Shown: piece after piece, positions 3,638 through 14,502 of the stretch
Position numbering within the stretch: position 1 is the stretch's first letter
Layout: the number at the start of each line of letters is the position of its first letter
Virus record (IMG/VR): IMGVR_UViG_3300034108_000410
Coordinates: 1 to 45,161 of that record
Reading direction: 5' to 3' (one strand)
DNA from: a virus
Length of the DNA stretch: 45,161 bases
Made by a program: the position numbers and the translations under genes
The notes under the pieces: generated by a model
Seen by the model: the letters and a program-made list of their open reading frames with translations, nothing else
What the model was told of the DNA's origin: nothing
The model's database searches: none

Positions 3638-3903
3638 CTCATTTCTCCAACCCCAAACTCTCGAATGGCTTCGAGGTGTGGGTTCTTTGTGGCGTCTGCG
3701 TCAGCGATCTGTCGCTTCGCCCGGACGATCAGGTCATGTGGATCGATGCCCGCTCCGAGGGCAACGAGGGTGGCTGTTAGGAACAGGGCGTCGATCTGGA
3801 TCGCCGCGTCCTTGGTCATCTGCATGGCGTCGAGGATGGTGAACGCTGGCACCTTGAGCGGGACCAGCGAACTATTAGCCATGACACGTTCGCGCAGGCT
3901 CAT
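3634..3903 (-). CDS. Hypothetical protein, 89 aa
   Basis: Unrecognised protein with a moderately hydrophobic middle (DALFLTATLVALGAG, about residues 38-52) that could be a buried helix or a weak membrane segment, and a basic/acidic C-terminal half. The ATG overlaps the stop of the 43-aa gene and the stop overlaps the next ATG. It belongs to the middle operon between RNA polymerase and SSB. Confidence 0.72.
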   Translation of the reverse strand: MSLRERVMANSSLVPLKVPAFTILDAMQMTKDAAIQIDALFLTATLVALGAGIDPHDLIVRAKRQIADADATKNPHLEAIREFGVGEMR

Positions 3904-4031
3904 CCGTCCATCTTCTCCTTCTCACCGATGGCGCGGCTCTTCACACCAGCCACGCTCACAGCGAAGCCGGGGTTGTTCTCAGCCATCTGGCGGGCCAGAC
4001 GGGCAGCAAGTTCAGGGGAAATCTTCTTCAT
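3900..4031 (-). CDS. Small hypothetical protein, 43 aa
   Basis: Short basic protein beginning MKKISPELAARLARQMAENN with a GGAGA ribosome site seven bases before the ATG. It is the first gene after the phage promoter at 4068-4091, and its stop is shared with the next ATG (ATGA). The first half looks like an amphipathic helix. No family is recognised; the strong ribosome site and coupling are the evidence that it is real. Confidence 0.65.
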   Translation of the reverse strand: MKKISPELAARLARQMAENNPGFAVSVAGVKSRAIGEKEKMDG

Positions 4032-4067
4032 GTATTGGTCTCCAGAAATTGAAAAATGCTTCCATCA

Positions 4068-4091
4068 CCAATGGTCTGCACTAATGGGCAC
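4068..4091 (-). promoter_or_regulatory. Phage RNA polymerase promoter (middle operon)
   Basis: On the minus strand this reads GTGCCCATTAGTGCAGACC then ATTGG, the same core found at four other places and always outside or at the edge of genes. Initiation is expected at the GG (about 4069). It lies between the RNA polymerase stop and the 43-aa gene and would drive the replication operon. A perfect 14-bp palindrome, TTCCGTTAACGGAA, sits directly upstream. Confidence 0.85.
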
Positions 4092-4095
4092 TTCC

Positions 4096-4115
4096 GTTAA
4101 CGGAACTATCAGGCA
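4096..4115 (-). repeat. Shared gene-end element, copy A
   Basis: A 20-base stretch covering the end of the RNA polymerase gene (from its final GCC-TGA) is identical to 10768-10787, the end of the 247-aa early gene. In both copies GTTAAC follows the stop. See the early-leader finding. Confidence 0.8.
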
Positions 4116-6550
4116 AAGGTGTATTCAGCGTCGGCAATGTCGCTGAGGTTCATGCTTCCAAGTGACGGCGGCGGGGGCAGTTGAGCCGCAGCATCAGCAC
4201 TCAACTGCTGTTTGATTTCCTCATGGAAATCTCCGAGCACGTTGCCGCTGTACTGTTCGACGAAGGTCTCACGCAGGATACGCGAGAGCTTGCCGGTGTT
4301 GGCTGCGTGGGTACCGAAGCTGTCGTGAATAACAGCGAGACTGTTGATCCCGTTCCTTTTGGCCCGCAGCGCGACTGCTCTTAAGTGAGCGGCGTCGAGA
4401 CTGTGGACAAAGTTGGGAGCCACGCCATTGACCTGTGATCGTGAGCAGATGTTGCTGGTCTCAGTCTGAAGCGTCATCGTAACCCGGCGACCACCCCAGA
4501 AGGCGTTCACGATAACACCGCTCTGCTTCTTGTACTCTTGCAGGATCGGCAGGCCATCCGGTGTTGTCCACCAGAGAGGCAGGCCGTCCGTAGCCGCCAC
4601 CTTGGCAACCTCACGCAACCATTCCATCGCCACAGCCGCTGCCGAAACAGTTCCGCTGATGGAACTAAATAGTACGTGAGACAGCCATGTCGCAGCGTGG
4701 TAGTTGTCCACGCCACCGAGGTAAGGCTCCTCGCCACGCGCCTCTGCTTCCTTATCGAGACCGCGAAGGGTCTCAAGGATCATCCCACCCATCCCGAAGC
4801 GGGTGGCTGAGTAACAGAAGGTCATCGTCGGACGCTTTGCGATGGCACGGGTGATCTTACCACCGGCCCAGCACTGACCGTACTCTTCCGTCGAGGCATC
4901 CGCCGCTGCCTGAGCAGCCTTGGCGACCGCCGTATAGACGTCCTGCGGTCGATCTGCGGGGAGCAGGTTAACCGCACGTCCACCTTGCTCGTCACGGAGC
5001 ATGGCAGAGAAGTGCTGCAAGCCTGAGCATGACCCGTCCAGCGCCACAGGGATCGAGGACACGAACGAGTTTCCCTCACGTACCCATCCAGCCAGCTCAT
5101 AGCAGGCCGCAAGTGCACAGTAGGGGCTGTCTGCCGTGGTCCAGAACCGCTGGCCGTCCAGAGGATCGTTCGCGCTGTCCAGAAGGGCACTGAGGTTATC
5201 CCTCACCCACCTGTGGCGCTCCTCGAAGCTCACCTTATCGACACCGAAGAGATTTGCGACGTGGACGAACAACCAGAACGCACCCTCATCACCGAGCGGC
5301 TTGCCGTCGGCGAACTGGATGAGAGCCTTCTGCCAGTCGCTGCCCTGCGGAGAGGGGCCGAACTGCGTGATCGGGTAGACCCGTCCACGGAAGTCCATCT
5401 CATGCGGGAAATAGATGGCTTCTTCGTCAGCGAACTTACGGGCAACCCACAGGCCTTGTTGAAGGGCGATGCGGGCGGACACGCGGTCAGCGTTGGCGGC
5501 GTAGACGGTTGCTGCTTCACGCTTCCATTCGAGCTTGGCTTCCTCGTTGGTGTCAATGTCGAGGGGCTTGGCTGGTACTGGATCGTCATGCCGTGGCGGT
5601 AGACCGCCGAGGCTGCCGCCTTCATCCCATACCGAAGCCATCACTTCGAGGACGCGGGTGTTGATCTTCCAGCGTGTCTCTTGGATGTGGTTCACGCTCT
5701 CGTAAACGTCAGGCATATCCACGTTGCGAAGCTCCATGTGATACGCAGGGTTCCGCTGCTTGACCAATCGGTTGCCGTGACGGGGTGTCAGGAAGCCACC
5801 GTAGGTCGGGCTGCGCCACCGACGGGGGCGACAGAGCATCGGCATGGTGATCGGCGAGAGCAGCTCACAGCGGGCGTGTTGTTTATCGAACCAGTCCGTC
5901 AGGGTTTCTGTGGGGCGGACAGCGTAGGCTGATCCCCTGCCCTTCGAGACAGTGTCGATCTTGAACAGGCCGGTGCTGTCGACCAGAAGCTCGATGCACT
6001 TGGTGCCGACCGAGACCTTCTCGGCATTCGACATACCAATGGCAACGCCTTCGGTAGTGAACAGCTTCTTGATGGCCGACCGACGCTGACGGCTGTAGCC
6101 GAGCTTCGCTTGCTTCTTCATGAAGCCCTTAAAGCCCACGCGGTTGACCTCACGGAATGCGTAGAACTCTGCATTCTCGATCAGTGCCTCAGCCACCTTC
6201 AGTGCTGCTGTCTGGAGCAGGCTGCCAGCGATGGCGATGTTCACGACCACACGACAGGTCAGATAGGCGATCTCCAGTGGGTCGGAGATCAGGAGAAGGT
6301 CTGCCGCAGCGTGGCGACGACCAGCCTTCCCTTCATTGACGTACTTCACGAACTGGGAAACTGCTTCCGACATCGGAAGTGTTGCTGTTTTGAGTAGCAG
6401 GTGACCCGGCGGGAGGTTGGCTTCCTCCTCTGCCGAGCCGACCATTTCTTTCCACGGCAGTAGGCGACTGCGGTAACGTGAAGCACCGAGTGCACGTTGA
6501 TCGTCTTCCAGTTCCAACTGGCGTCGGATCGTTGCTTTGAAATCTTTCAT
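4109..6550 (-). CDS. Phage DNA-directed RNA polymerase (T7 gp1-like)
   Basis: Single-subunit polymerase of 813 aa that transcribes the middle and late genes from its own promoters. Landmarks of the T7 family: DFRGRVYP around 386-393; motif A ALDGSCSGLQHFSAML with the catalytic Asp near 505; motif B KRPTMTFCY with Lys near 572 and Tyr near 580; and motif C VIHDSFGT with His-Asp near 742-743. The protein ends in FA like T7 RNAP, whose C-terminal -FA is functional. The chosen ATG has AAGGAAGG upstream; a TTG 18 codons earlier would put coding sequence inside the leader hairpin and has no ribosome site. Two tandem phage promoters lie upstream, so expression is autocatalytic after host RNA polymerase starts it. 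T7 RNAP is 883 aa, so this is a shorter member. Confidence 0.98.
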   Translation of the reverse strand: MKDFKATIRRQLELEDDQRALGASRYRSRLLPWKEMVGSAEEEANLPPGHLLLKTATLPMSEAVSQFVKYVNEGKAGRRHAAADLLLISDPLEIAYLTCRVVVNIAIAGSLLQTAALKVAEALIENAEFYAFREVNRVGFKGFMKKQAKLGYSRQRRSAIKKLFTTEGVAIGMSNAEKVSVGTKCIELLVDSTGLFKIDTVSKGRGSAYAVRPTETLTDWFDKQHARCELLSPITMPMLCRPRRWRSPTYGGFLTPRHGNRLVKQRNPAYHMELRNVDMPDVYESVNHIQETRWKINTRVLEVMASVWDEGGSLGGLPPRHDDPVPAKPLDIDTNEEAKLEWKREAATVYAANADRVSARIALQQGLWVARKFADEEAIYFPHEMDFRGRVYPITQFGPSPQGSDWQKALIQFADGKPLGDEGAFWLFVHVANLFGVDKVSFEERHRWVRDNLSALLDSANDPLDGQRFWTTADSPYCALAACYELAGWVREGNSFVSSIPVALDGSCSGLQHFSAMLRDEQGGRAVNLLPADRPQDVYTAVAKAAQAAADASTEEYGQCWAGGKITRAIAKRPTMTFCYSATRFGMGGMILETLRGLDKEAEARGEEPYLGGVDNYHAATWLSHVLFSSISGTVSAAAVAMEWLREVAKVAATDGLPLWWTTPDGLPILQEYKKQSGVIVNAFWGGRRVTMTLQTETSNICSRSQVNGVAPNFVHSLDAAHLRAVALRAKRNGINSLAVIHDSFGTHAANTGKLSRILRETFVEQYSGNVLGDFHEEIKQQLSADAAAQLPPPPSLGSMNLSDIADAEYTFA

Positions 6551-6607
6551 ATGTTGTCCTTCCTTTTCAGGGATCAGCCCGTTCGAACGACGGGCGAGGT
6601 TCAATCA

Positions 6608-6631
6608 CCAATGGTCTGCACTAATGGGCAC
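6608..6631 (-). promoter_or_regulatory. Phage promoter upstream of RNA polymerase, proximal
   Basis: Minus-strand GTGCCCATTAGTGCAGACC then ATTGG, identical over the core to the copy at 4068-4091. Transcription would start about 60 bases before the RNA polymerase ATG. The leader contains a six-bp hairpin (GCCCGT/ACGGGC) before the ribosome site. Confidence 0.85.
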
Positions 6632-6677: not shown

Positions 6678-6701
6678 CCAAGGGTCTGCACTAATGCGGT
6701 G
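6678..6701 (-). promoter_or_regulatory. Phage promoter upstream of RNA polymerase, distal
   Basis: Minus-strand ATTAGTGCAGACC then CTTGGGGG, matching the core of the other copies but with a divergent upstream half (ACACCGC in place of GTGCCC). It lies 70 bp upstream of the proximal copy in the same orientation. The divergence may make it weaker or a sequence variant. Confidence 0.75.
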
Positions 6702-6744
6702 TTTATTGGTTCCGTTGGCACGATCATCGATCTTACGGAAGTAA

Positions 6745-6956
6745 TGTGCCAGATCGTGCCGATTCGTGGCACAGAAGATCGTGACAGGTGGCACACCCCT
6801 GTGCCACGCTGTAACTTATTGATTTTATAGGAGGTAGTGGCGCACCCAGAACGAACCTTGCGTTCATTATCAACTACTTAGTTGACCGCAGGTGCGCCAT
6901 AGGGGTGACCAATAGTTCCATCAGGTTGACTAAACCGTAAGGTTGATAATGTGCCA
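6745..6956. other. Candidate attP region: TGTGCCA repeat array
   Basis: Five copies of TGTGCCA occur in both orientations: 6745-6751, 6767-6773 (inverted), 6789-6795 (inverted), 6800-6806 and 6950-6956. The third and fourth form a perfect eight-bp hairpin GTGGCACA-CCCC-TGTGCCAC. The array flanks the integrase 3' end. Tyrosine integrases bind short repeated arm sites beside a core, and attP commonly adjoins int; that this array is such a site is inference. No bacterial tRNA fragment was recognised. Confidence 0.45.
6838..6899 (-). other. Three-way-junction dyad across the integrase stop codon
   Basis: A nine-bp inverted repeat, TGGCGCACC (6838-6846) and GGTGCGCCA (6891-6899), encloses two smaller hairpins. 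One is CAACTA/TAGTTG at 6871-6884, containing the integrase stop. The other is GAACG/CGTTC with a seven-base loop at 6849-6865. As RNA or as extruded DNA this would fold into a three-way junction ending in CCA. It is not a canonical tRNA because the second loop lacks TTCRA and there is no D arm. Confidence 0.6.
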
Positions 6957-8152
6957 TCTTGATTGCCAAGTTGCTCACTGAAACCTTTCGTGCCAGCATC
7001 GAGTATGCGGGCACCTCGGTGTAGATGGTTTGCCATCAGGTGTACATAGCGACCAGCGGTGATGCTGATATCGCTGTGCCCCAACCAGTCACGCAGGGAG
7101 ACCAGATCGAGACCGCCCTCGGCCAAGCGGGTGGCGCAGGTGTGACGGAAGGTGTGCTGCTTGACGTCATCAACGTCATAGCCCTTGGCCTTCATGTCCC
7201 TGCGGATCACCTCCCACATCGTCCAAGGTACGCTGCTCTTGACCGGCCAAGGATACCAGCGGCCAGCCTTCGCCATGCTGTTGAGCTGTGGGATCAGAGC
7301 TTCGACGCGGCGCGTGACAGGCACGTCACGGCTGCGCTGTGACTTGGTGCCGACAGCATCGAGGCCGAGGAAGGTCTCGCTGAATGCCTCGCCGGTCACC
7401 GGATCAACCCAAGTCTTCCGGCGGACACTGCGTGGGCCGCACGATAGGCACTCGCCAAGGCGGAAGCCCATGTCGAGCTGTTGGATGACCAGCGCCTTGA
7501 ACCACCACCACGGACGAGCATCCTCGCTGTGGTGGCGGGCATCGATACACTCGAGGATCGCTGCCTCTTCATCGCGAGAGACCACACGGTCCTGCACGTT
7601 CCTGACGGTGACCTTAGGCATCTTCGGGACCGCTGCGAGATACGTGCGTCCGGTTGCAGGGTTCTCGGTCTCGGTTGCGTGACGCATGGCTGCGCCGACC
7701 GCTGTGATGCGCCGGCGGATCGTCCCCTCGGCCAGACCCTCGGCCCTCATGTGCTCGACAAGCTGTGCTAGGTGCGTTGAGCGCACCTCGGCAAGCAACA
7801 GGTCATCAGGGATCGCCGAGGACAGCCGCTTCACGATGGAGTAGGCCGACTTGGTATCGCGGATGGTGTGCTCGGCCCAGATGGTGCGGGTGCACTGTCC
7901 AAGCCACTGCTTGAGCGTCATGTCGGATGATGAAACCGGCTCCGGTCTCGGTGCCTTGCCCTTCGCTGCAATCACCCCGCCCTGCGATGGATGCTTGGGG
8001 TGCGTACCGCGCAACCAGTCAGCCAGTTGCAGTCGAGCGTTGCCTTCGTCGCGTGTCTCAAAGCTCACCCGTACCCGTGACAAAGCCCCATTGTCATCGG
8101 GTAGACGGGCGTCAATGAAGTACACGCCGTTAGTCTTGCGCTTCAGCTTCAT
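6878..8152 (-). CDS. int: Tyrosine recombinase / phage integrase
   Basis: A 424-aa integrase that would insert the phage genome by recombination at attP. The catalytic residues are visible in order: R231 (MGFRLGE), K270 (GTKSQRSR), H333 and R336 (HTFRHTCATRL), H359 (LGHSD) and the nucleophile Y369 (AGRYVHL). A SAM-like core-binding domain lies around 75-180 and an N-terminal arm-binding region before it. About 50 residues follow the active tyrosine, a little longer than usual. The ATG lies inside the end of the MarR-like gene (23-bp overlap), so the two are co-expressed. Position upstream of RNA polymerase matches temperate T7-like pelagiphages and P-SSP7. Confidence 0.96.
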   Translation of the reverse strand: MKLKRKTNGVYFIDARLPDDNGALSRVRVSFETRDEGNARLQLADWLRGTHPKHPSQGGVIAAKGKAPRPEPVSSSDMTLKQWLGQCTRTIWAEHTIRDTKSAYSIVKRLSSAIPDDLLLAEVRSTHLAQLVEHMRAEGLAEGTIRRRITAVGAAMRHATETENPATGRTYLAAVPKMPKVTVRNVQDRVVSRDEEAAILECIDARHHSEDARPWWWFKALVIQQLDMGFRLGECLSCGPRSVRRKTWVDPVTGEAFSETFLGLDAVGTKSQRSRDVPVTRRVEALIPQLNSMAKAGRWYPWPVKSSVPWTMWEVIRRDMKAKGYDVDDVKQHTFRHTCATRLAEGGLDLVSLRDWLGHSDISITAGRYVHLMANHLHRGARILDAGTKGFSEQLGNQDGTLSTLRFSQPDGTIGHPYGAPAVN

Positions 8153-8540
8153 GTGCTGTGCCTTTCATTTCAAGGATCAACGCGGCGAATATCTCGCGAC
8201 CCTTGGGGGTCAGCTTCAAGATTTTCTGCCGGTTGTCATAAGGGTTTTCCTGACGTTCAAGGAGACCCGCGCCATACGGTACGGTTCGCGAGGGCGTCAG
8301 TAGTGCCCTGTAGGTGGAGTGGAGTGACCGATTGATCGCCGGTCCCAGAGCTTCTTTCAGCTCGGTGAATGTAGGCTGCTTGCCTGCAATGTCAGCGGCT
8401 CCCGCCAGTAGGAAGAACGACGCCTGCGACAGGCTCGTACGTTCCGGCAGCATACTCGTCAGCGTTATCAGCGCCGAAGAGAAGTCGGCCAACGCGCCAA
8501 CGTGGAGATGCAGATTTTCTCTGGTGTTTTTGTTCTTCAT
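8130..8540 (-). CDS. MarR-like winged-helix regulator
   Basis: A 136-aa protein with a winged helix-turn-helix pattern: helices around 37-85 and a wing-like LLERQENPYDNRQKILKLTPKGREI around 93-117. The D-x-R ... LT-x-KGRE ending is typical of MarR-type folds. An AAGGAG ribosome site lies seven bases before the ATG. It overlaps the start of integrase, so it is the best candidate for a lysogeny or early-gene regulator; no CI-like or Cro-like repressor is seen elsewhere. A six-bp dyad just upstream (8562-8580) could be its own operator. The fold call is by eye, and its role as repressor is inference. Confidence 0.7.
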   Translation of the reverse strand: MKNKNTRENLHLHVGALADFSSALITLTSMLPERTSLSQASFFLLAGAADIAGKQPTFTELKEALGPAINRSLHSTYRALLTPSRTVPYGAGLLERQENPYDNRQKILKLTPKGREIFAALILEMKGTAHEAEAQD

Positions 8541-12112: not shown

Positions 12113-12204
12113 GCACCGATAGGCCTTAGGTGCCCCTCATATAGCCCTAGTGCTCTATCGTGCCTGTACGGGCCTCTGTGGGCCTTACAGGGCATGGTGC
12201 GCCA

Positions 12205-12256
12205 TTGGTGCCTTGCCGGTGCCCCGTTGGTGCCTTGCCGGTGCCCCGTTGGTGCC
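12205..12256. repeat. Tandem 22-bp repeat
   Basis: Two full units and a partial third, each beginning TTGGTGCCTTGCCGGTG and then CCCCG, at 12205-12226, 12227-12248 and 12249-12256. Confidence 0.85.
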
Positions 12257-12287
12257 GAACGAAAAAAGCAGGGCAGAGCACCCGAAC

Positions 12288-12430
12288 GCGCCCACGGTTG
12301 ACCTAGGGCGCACCCGCCATGCCCTATCGTGCCACCAATGGCCCGCCTTGCACTATTGCGCCCACGGTTTCCCTAGGGGTTGCGTCAATCGTGCCACCAT
12401 ATCGCGCCATAGGGTACCGCTTGGCACCTA
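12288..12430. repeat. Imperfect ~71-bp direct repeat
   Basis: GCGCCCACGGTT followed shortly by CCTAGGG, then later ATCGTGCCACCA, occurs in the same order in two consecutive blocks (starting 12288 and 12359). Only these landmarks match well, so the units have diverged. Confidence 0.5.
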
Positions 12431-12560
12431 GGGAAACGCTGGAAAGCCTAGGGATTCCGTCACTATGCCAGCCACCCCGCCCCTACGGGGGGTACCCGTC
12501 GACGGTCGCTGCGTTATCCCCCTTCGTAATTTTGCACCAAAACCAACGGGTTACCAAAAA

Positions 12561-12584
12561 GTGCCAATTAGTGCAGACCTTTGG
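12561..12584 (+). promoter_or_regulatory. Phage promoter in inverted orientation
   Basis: Plus-strand GTGCCAATTAGTGCAGACC then TTTGG matches the minus-strand promoter at 40340-40363 in all but one core base. It points toward the 3' end of the large terminase, antisense to every gene in the genome. Confidence 0.8.
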
Positions 12585-12771: not shown

Positions 12772-14502
12772 CTACCTTCTATGCTTCACAGGCCTCCCAC
12801 GGCCTCTGGAGGCAGACACACCACCCTTGGTCTTAGCGACAAAGGGATTGGCACCGAAGATGTGGGTGATCCTCCGTGCTTCTATCTCCGCCTCGATCTT
12901 CTTGATCCTGTCTTCCTCTGCCTTCTTGGCATCAGCGTTCAGGTACTCAGTCCAGTAGGAGACTGCCATTGCAAGGACGTCGATCTTGTCGTCATGCTTG
13001 ATGGCACCCCGGACGGGGGACATATGTGTGAGCTGGTACAGACCTCGGTGCACCTGAGGGTCCTTGAGGTCCTCCTCTATGACCTTGCGGTCCATCACCA
13101 GTCTGTGTTGGCGGAGGACGGGCTGTAGAGTACGGACTATCCGCTCCTCCTTCATCCCGGACACGCGGTGACCTTCGATGTTGCAGTTGCGTACGCGGGC
13201 TACGTGAGGCTCTAGTAGCTTACCAAACATACCGTCACCGAAGTTGTCCTCGGGTACGATTAGGTTGACCTCATGTTCCTTACTGATCTCCGCTAAGGCA
13301 CGTAGGGTCCCGTCTCCGTAACCATCTTGGTACCCACCCCACGCCAACAGGAAGACGTAACCATTTAGGAACTTCGTCACTGCGTATGTGGTGCGATCTC
13401 GTCCACGACCTGAGGGGTCGATGTGAAGGACAGCGCCTTGGTAGGGAATGAAGTCCTGAGACATGAATACCGGACGGTGGAAGCGGTCTCCATCGAACCC
13501 CACGTTGGGGAGGTCCTTGATGACCTGATCTGGTCCTGAACCCCACACCAGTCGACCTGGTGCTACCTTGCGGTCTACGTCGGTGACGATGAGGTCTCTG
13601 GTCTTCAGTGGGTAGCGTTCAGCATCTGACAGGGTAGTGTCGAGCTGGAACTGGAGCAGGAAGCCTGCCTCACGATACTCCTGCTCACGCTCCATGAGAT
13701 CGAGGTCGTTAAACCGTGCAGGGTCCGTAGGTGCACCGCCGAGCGTTGAGGAGACCGGCTTGGTGAGCGTAGGATCAGCCTCAATGTCTGCAAGGAGCAT
13801 AGGTGCAAGGAAGGCACCATAGTTCCCCAGCTTCTCACTTGTGGGATACCGGCAGGGCCAGACACGGACATCGTAGCCTTTGTCAGGTAGCTGGCGGTAG
13901 ATCGATTGTTCAGACTGAGGTGTACCGAGGTAGACGATCTCACCACCGGGCTTGGTGATGGCCGCATACTCCTTGGTCTTCTCGTTGAGCTTCTCCCGCA
14001 TTGTCTCGGTCTCGGAGTTCTTCGGGACCTCGACGTCGTCGGAGATCGTCAGGTCGGCACGGGAACCCGTGAGCTGACCGACAATCGACATGGCTTTGAC
14101 CGACGGGGACTTGTCAGGCTTGGCAGCACCGACATCGAAAGCGAGTGTCGAGTTGCGTTGGCCGGGTTTGGGGCGAAGCTCTGTCCATAGCTCATCGCCC
14201 GCTTCGGCTTCGATGATCTGTTTGATGAACCCGCTGATCTCCACAGCGAGCTGTTCGTTGGCTGATACGATAGCGACCTTGAGGTCTGGGTTCTTCCAGA
14301 GCCTCCAGACCACATACGTAGCCGTGATGAACGTCTTACCGACCCCACGGAACGCCTGAATAAAGCGTCGTCGGGGGCCGGTAGAGAGGTAGACTGCAAC
14401 GTCCTTCTGTACACGGGTCGGCTCGGGGAGAGCCAACACGTACTTCCAGACGTACCAAAGGAACTTGATGAAGCTCCCTTGGAGTTGTTCTTTGGCTGTC
14501 AA
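12772..14502 (-). CDS. Terminase large subunit (T7 gp19-like)
   Basis: A 576-aa DNA-packaging motor and nuclease (T7 gp19 is 586 aa). The ATPase Walker A is FRGVGKT at 51-57, Walker B LTISDD at 151-156, and a coupling-like YLGTPQSE follows around 191-198. The RNase H-like nuclease half has HIDPSGRGRDRT with a catalytic Asp near 362. The start is a TTG with AGGAG five bases upstream; no ATG fits. It is the last gene before the gene-free end region, the same place as in T7. Three fibre-like genes separate it from the small subunit, which is unusual. Confidence 0.96.
   Translation of the reverse strand: MTAKEQLQGSFIKFLWYVWKYVLALPEPTRVQKDVAVYLSTGPRRRFIQAFRGVGKTFITATYVVWRLWKNPDLKVAIVSANEQLAVEISGFIKQIIEAEAGDELWTELRPKPGQRNSTLAFDVGAAKPDKSPSVKAMSIVGQLTGSRADLTISDDVEVPKNSETETMREKLNEKTKEYAAITKPGGEIVYLGTPQSEQSIYRQLPDKGYDVRVWPCRYPTSEKLGNYGAFLAPMLLADIEADPTLTKPVSSTLGGAPTDPARFNDLDLMEREQEYREAGFLLQFQLDTTLSDAERYPLKTRDLIVTDVDRKVAPGRLVWGSGPDQVIKDLPNVGFDGDRFHRPVFMSQDFIPYQGAVLHIDPSGRGRDRTTYAVTKFLNGYVFLLAWGGYQDGYGDGTLRALAEISKEHEVNLIVPEDNFGDGMFGKLLEPHVARVRNCNIEGHRVSGMKEERIVRTLQPVLRQHRLVMDRKVIEEDLKDPQVHRGLYQLTHMSPVRGAIKHDDKIDVLAMAVSYWTEYLNADAKKAEEDRIKKIEAEIEARRITHIFGANPFVAKTKGGVSASRGRGRPVKHRR

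Follow-up and report, generated by a model that had tools for sequence, protein, structure and literature searches.

Does the cluster of TGTGCCA repeats at the 3' end of an integrase gene mark the site (attP) at which a temperate T7-like phage recombines with its host, or do these repeats bind a regulator, act in RNA or reflect chance? The question was addressed for a stretch of viral DNA of 45,161 nucleotides (the window), in which a preliminary description had proposed a probable attP with arm sites around a core or, alternatively, operators of a MarR-like protein. The ends of the window overlap by 151 bases, 150 of which are identical (one mismatch), so the window represents the closed circular map of an unintegrated genome. 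All of the large genes are on the minus strand, and the following features surround the repeats:

12772-14502, T7-type terminase.
11524 down to 8540, minus strand, small early genes, followed by the regulator, the integrase, the RNA polymerase and primase/helicase.
8130-8540, minus strand, predicted MarR-fold winged-helix regulator (AF2 pLDDT 85), overlapping the integrase start.
6878-8152, minus strand, tyrosine integrase of 424 aa (PHROG 1 integrase, E=2.8e-38; PF00589, E=8.6e-13).
6683-6696, minus strand, putative phage-polymerase promoter CATTAGTGCAGACC(C)TTGGGG, a genome repeat.
6613-6626, minus strand, second putative phage-polymerase promoter, the same repeat.
4109-6604, minus strand, T7-type single-subunit RNA polymerase (PHROG 414, E=7.2e-244; PF00940, E=7.8e-109).

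The integrase, with its Arg, Lys, HxxR, GHS and Tyr residues conserved, directly precedes the RNA polymerase on the same strand; the start codon of the latter is likely the ATG at 6550. When the predicted model of the regulator was used in a structure search, MarR-family regulators dominated the top PDB matches, and the regulator gene is kept upstream of the integrase in relatives. The repeat CATTAGTGCAGACC, probably a phage promoter, is present at five places in the genome (besides 6683-6696, at 4073(-), 6613(-), 40345(-) and 12566(+)), and the relatives carry T3-promoter-like repeats. The copy at 12566-12579 (+) points opposite to every large gene. A scan for sigma-70 promoters in the early region yielded no excess of hits over shuffles, and host promoters of the early genes were thus not located.

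The repeats themselves were recovered exactly as first described: five copies of TGTGCCA (6745-6751 (+), 6767-6773 (-), 6789-6795 (-), 6800-6806 (+) and 6950-6956 (+)), a perfect hairpin CGTGGCACAG/CTGTGCCACG at 6765-6774/6799-6808, and a 10-bp inverted repeat, CATTATCAAC (6865-6874)/GTTGATAATG (6942-6951). The right-hand repeats (6894-6994) lie inside the integrase 3' end and the others between the integrase and the RNA polymerase. Counted over the window as a whole, TGTGCCA shows no excess (10 found vs. 6.9 expected), and the signal is therefore one of local clustering; only two 7-mers in the window have five copies inside 215 bp. Since 12 of 100 second-order Markov simulations contained at least one cluster of such size, comparison with relatives was needed, and the cluster in one genome alone provides moderate evidence.

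The core had been predicted to lie between 6700 and 6960 and was located within that interval:

6838-6854, minus strand, attP core of 17 bp, TCGTTCTGGGTGCGCCA, identical to the 3' end of tRNA-Arg(ACG).

It covers the T-stem, the acceptor and the CCA of this tRNA. Exact matches were found in 2 of 401 Sphingomonadaceae genomes (ca. 0.3 random matches expected in 401) and in five of 45 genomes from a single Sphingomonadaceae genus, each of the five being among tRNA-Arg(ACG) 3' ends; none was found in 240 genomes sampled across the class. As the five matches in that genus are at tRNA-Arg(ACG) and the class sample has none, a fair guess is that the host belongs to the genus holding the matching tRNA. 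Among the genomes searched, no attL or attR of exactly this phage was found, and 0 of the 45 genomes of the genus with the matching tRNA carried a near relative of the integrase; for these reasons we infer the phage's own attB. The tRNA and Rfam scans of the window returned nothing at the attP site, because it holds just a tRNA 3' end.

Relatives were collected by alignment-based scans of many viral contigs and of prophages in named genomes; alignments were required, a single-protein integrase search of the viral contigs having given no match. For six relative prophages both ends were read. All of them are integrated (temperate Autographiviridae), and the core appears at attL and attR as a direct repeat of 13-20 bp, mostly a tRNA 3' end:

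Caulobacter sp. D5, 19-bp repeat AATCCCACCCTCTCCGCCA, tRNA-Ser(CGA); RNA polymerase at 4363 and integrase at 47217-48290 of one 48.9-kb contig.
Novosphingobium umbonatum, direct repeat of 20 bp, tRNA-Ser(CGA).
N. lindaniclasticum, 13-bp repeat, tRNA-Pro(GGG).
N. meiothermophilum, tRNA-Ser(CGA), located on the integrase side.
Sphingopyxis flava, 13-bp repeat TGACACATATAGT, not a tRNA.
Sphingomonadaceae genome G037, 14-bp repeat, tRNA-Gly(CCC); RNA polymerase and integrase ca. 41 kb apart on one contig.

All six crossovers took place between the integrase and the RNA polymerase, and these two genes are at opposite ends of the prophage beside host DNA. Junctions mapping elsewhere had been named as the result that would speak against an attP here; those of the relatives fall in the same integrase-polymerase gap. 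Both ends are on a single contig in Caulobacter sp. D5, N. meiothermophilum, S. flava and G037, and in these four prophages the RNA polymerase gene begins just past the host junction, ca. 40 kb from the early genes; in the free genome it comes after the early genes, the regulator and the integrase. The best integrase match in Brevundimonas sp. ASV9 (L163, G005 C733:13376-14272) contains an in-frame TGA, and this locus is probably a decaying prophage.

The integrase-polymerase gap of the relatives was then compared with respect to the repeats, the lack of which in related integrase phages had also been named as an argument against attP. The relatives do carry them, and the spacing to the core is fixed. 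Over 18 loci, no 6-mer is more enriched in the gap than GTGCCA (73 copies in 9.3 kb vs. 110 in 272 kb, 19-fold), an enrichment with a P value that is not to be taken literally, as the loci are related. When positions are counted from the last core base, sites recur at +45, +54, +79, +89 and +118, within ca. 1 bp, and the same spacing is found in phages with three different tRNA cores (Arg, Gly and Pro). For the seven loci with a core that is a recognisable tRNA end, the register score was 212, as against 3000 shuffles that averaged 19 and did not exceed 66; when each tRNA type (Arg, Pro, Gly) was represented by a single locus, 6 or 2 of 3000 shuffles reached the score. The integrase side has a register of its own (GGAA at -84, sites at -72 and -60), with a score of 40 vs. 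a null maximum of 26 (reached by 0 of 3000 shuffles), in DNA that also codes for the poorly conserved integrase tail. Taken across relatives, the evidence from the repeats is very strong. In the window, the corresponding elements are as follows:

6950-6956, plus strand, integrase-side repeat at -117, also at -117/-118 in the relatives L011 and L025.
6891-6927, minus strand, candidate integrase-side arm in the integrase 3' end, with GGAA at -83 and sites at -71 and -60.
6865-6880, minus strand, left half of the core-flanking inverted repeat, TAAGTAGTTGATAATG (includes CATTATCAAC).
6812-6831, plus strand, right half of the core-flanking inverted repeat, TAACTTATTGATTTTATAGG, in which ATCAATnACTTA is conserved in relatives.
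6800-6806, plus strand, repeat copy at +33 from the core end, hairpin partner of 6767-6773, position not conserved.
6789-6795, minus strand, candidate arm site at +44, in register in 7/7 loci with a tRNA-verified core.
6777-6785, minus strand, candidate arm site at +53 (GTCACGATC), palindromic pair with +44, strict motif in register in 5/7 loci.
6767-6773, minus strand, repeat copy at +66, position varying from +66 to +72 in relatives.
6717-6760, minus strand, outer polymerase-side element GGCACGATC-TGGCACATTACTTCC...GATCGTGCC, with sites at +78, +88 and +117.

Two parts of the original account were modified by this comparison. The motif TGTGCCA holds and is better written as (AT)CGTGCCA/TGTGCCA, and extra copies lie at 6717-6760 and at 6891-6909. 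The inverted repeat of 10 bp is real and belongs in part to the core-flanking pair 6812-6831/6865-6880. The midpoint of this pair coincides with that of the core, and TAAGTnATTGA-like halves recur in relatives. The +44/+53 palindrome is centred at +51.5 in most relatives. The outer polymerase-side sites are in register at +79 in 6/7, at +89 in 7/7 and at +118 in 6/7 loci. The integrase-side arm at 6891-6927 is an inverted copy of the outer element, the outer elements of the two sides being inverted copies of one pattern, GGCACGAT-n-TTCC; its GGAA is kept in most rows of an alignment of 14 loci. The GTGCCA array was absent from other T7-like prophage groups (Rhodanobacter, Xanthobacter, Bradyrhizobium and others), and the motif is thus a feature of this lineage and not of T7-like prophages in general. 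In a sister contig that is 99.97% identical (L008, 1-420), the integrase stop codon TAA is TAC, and the frame would extend by 76 codons through the core and the polymerase-side repeats; the TAC is 113 bases from the contig end and could be an assembly error.

The explanation that best accommodates these results is that a temperate T7-like (Autographiviridae-type) phage, with a Sphingomonadaceae host, has its attP at 6716-6957, consisting of a tRNA-Arg(ACG) core and arm sites; we assign a probability of roughly 0.87 to this explanation as a whole. The proposal of a probable attP is thereby supported by the junctions of the relatives, by the tRNA core, which is identical to the presumed host attB, and by the register of the repeated sites on both sides. 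The tyrosine integrase of the neighbouring gene would recombine the 17-bp core, a copy of the tRNA 3' end, with the host tRNA-Arg(ACG) gene, which would stay intact because the phage brings the same 3' end. The core is flanked by the inverted pair of core-proximal repeats, and the GTGCCA-type arrays at set distances from the crossover would most likely be arm sites for a recombination complex, which the integrase would build alone or together with an accessory protein; a constant spacing to the crossover, found on both sides and with different cores, is the behaviour expected of arm sites. The integrase would be the likeliest protein to bind the GTGCCA sites. Recombination would open the phage map between the integrase and the RNA polymerase, place these genes at opposite ends of the prophage and disconnect the polymerase gene from the early operon located ahead of it in the free genome, a separation that may help to keep the prophage silent. 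A further observation counts against this explanation: ATCGTGCCA is also present at 12326 and 12388, in the non-coding left-end region, where no integrase arm is expected. This second cluster had no counterpart among the other records searched. It lies in a long non-coding gap between the terminase and the first early gene (12150-12570), which also contains short tandem repeats; five copies of CCCTAGG are found in 12302-12447.

The alternatives differ in how they deal with the same sites. Dual use, in which the integrase and the MarR-fold protein share the sites and the regulator, besides repressing the polymerase, guides recombination, is compatible with the evidence for both binding readings and with the palindromic pair in most relatives. 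We regard it as possible but rather improbable; as a second use, the palindromic pair towards the polymerase may also be bound by the MarR-fold regulator.

That the repeats are simply operators, with which the regulator encoded at 8130-8540 represses the polymerase promoter while attP merely adjoins them, is unlikely. The predicted MarR fold of this protein is in its favour, and the +44/+53 pair resembles a MarR-type operator and would suit a MarR dimer; the +45/+54 pair is palindromic in relatives as well, for example ATCGTGCCAGTTGGCACGAT in L009 and AGTGTGCCATGGCACACT in phage jiawei. The reading also matches what has been proposed for LUZ100 and other temperate T7-like phages, a hypothesis reported by the LUZ100 authors being that MarR binds sites flanking a promoter upstream of the RNA polymerase (PMC10134795). 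However, the sites are in register with the core (score 206) and not with the promoter (64) in a set of nine loci that includes L038 and L041, the core ends of which were placed by alignment. Furthermore, sites are found beyond the core, within the integrase coding sequence, and upstream of the regulator the motif is at background (one copy in 5.1 kb, 17 loci). Taken by itself, a palindrome score did not set the sites apart from background. The regulator and integrase phylogenies do not distinguish between the binding readings, since the two genes co-vary and travel together.

Action of the inverted repeats in RNA, as an attenuator between the integrase and the RNA polymerase, is very unlikely: the 179-nt transcript folds somewhat better than shuffles (z=-2.3) through two hairpins, but a terminator scan of the minus strand in the integrase-polymerase gap gave no site, the strongest hairpin of the window is formed by the +33/+66 sites, with positions that are not conserved in relatives, and the order of the sites suits a register in DNA. 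Chance clustering of a common 7-mer, with which the absence of a window-wide excess and the 12 simulations with a similar cluster would agree, is refuted by the comparison of 18 loci, in which this motif is the top enriched word at an equivalent position, and by the core register, and its probability is negligible.

The attP reading can be placed beside known systems. The closest gene order (regulator, integrase, gap, RNA polymerase) is that of Caulobacter phage S2B (MN857473) and phage jiawei (OR464703), with RNA polymerases that are 53-54% identical to that of the window and integrases that are merely 30-33% identical. Their gap carries GGCACA/TGTGCC repeats (motif variant TGTGCC/GGCACAC) and, unlike that of the window, an additional small ORF; attP is not named in the annotation of the stretches compared. 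Phage jiawei (L007), recorded as "Mycobacterium phage jiawei", groups by sequence with T7-like phages of Alphaproteobacteria, and its Mycolicibacterium host label looks doubtful. The comparison set also comprised LUZ100, Pasto, HTVC019P-type pelagiphages and T7-like cyanophages (P-SSP7, S-TIP37). According to two papers (PMC8776855, PMC10134795), temperate T7-like phages with an integrase before the RNA polymerase and a tRNA-related attP downstream of the integrase gene are known, the latter being the arrangement of the T7-like cyanophages. LUZ100 and Pasto share with the window a tyrosine integrase before the RNA polymerase, and LUZ100 also has a MarR-like gene before the integrase, which is ca. 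24% identical to that of the window. The cyanophage core is 39 bp long and taken from the first half of tRNA-Leu, as compared with 13-20 bp of a 3' end here. The available portions of the literature on the attP of LUZ100, Pasto, the pelagiphages and the cyanophages contained no description of arm sites. A GTGTCG/CGACAC array is present between the integrase and the RNA polymerase of Pseudomonas phage LUZ100 (L185, record 3800-4048), together with a TCAATAAAATCAACCACTTA element that resembles the core-flanking repeats of the window. Rhizobium phage Pasto (L187, 8491-8914) has a TGTGCCA array beside a full tRNA-Leu, just before the RNA polymerase and ca. 2 kb from the integrase.

In attP sites of the lambda type, a bivalent integrase binds arm and core sites, the repeated sites being at fixed distances on both sides of the core. 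The attP of the window would work in the same way, with a core and repeated sites at set distances on both sides; the sequence of the sites is different, and IHF or Xis sites were not identified in the window. No prior description of the in-register arm array or of the repeat layout was found in the freely accessible literature searched. What is added here is the exact core, the likely tRNA and host group, and the in-register array of a Sphingomonadales/Caulobacter lineage.

The crossover has been narrowed to 17 bp, and the positions of the arm sites are listed, so that they can be mutated individually. Since the early genes are on one side of attP and the polymerase gene on the other, recombination would cut the polymerase off from host-driven transcription. 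Integration might then itself be the lysogeny switch, with the MarR-fold regulator acting on the same palindromic sites to control both polymerase read-through and the direction of recombination, a speculative model that we consider improbable as a whole. Natural prophages show that integration parts the polymerase gene from the early operon, and a model of integration as a switch thereby becomes testable. The finding bears on how T7-like phages, long considered strictly lytic, hold a prophage silent.
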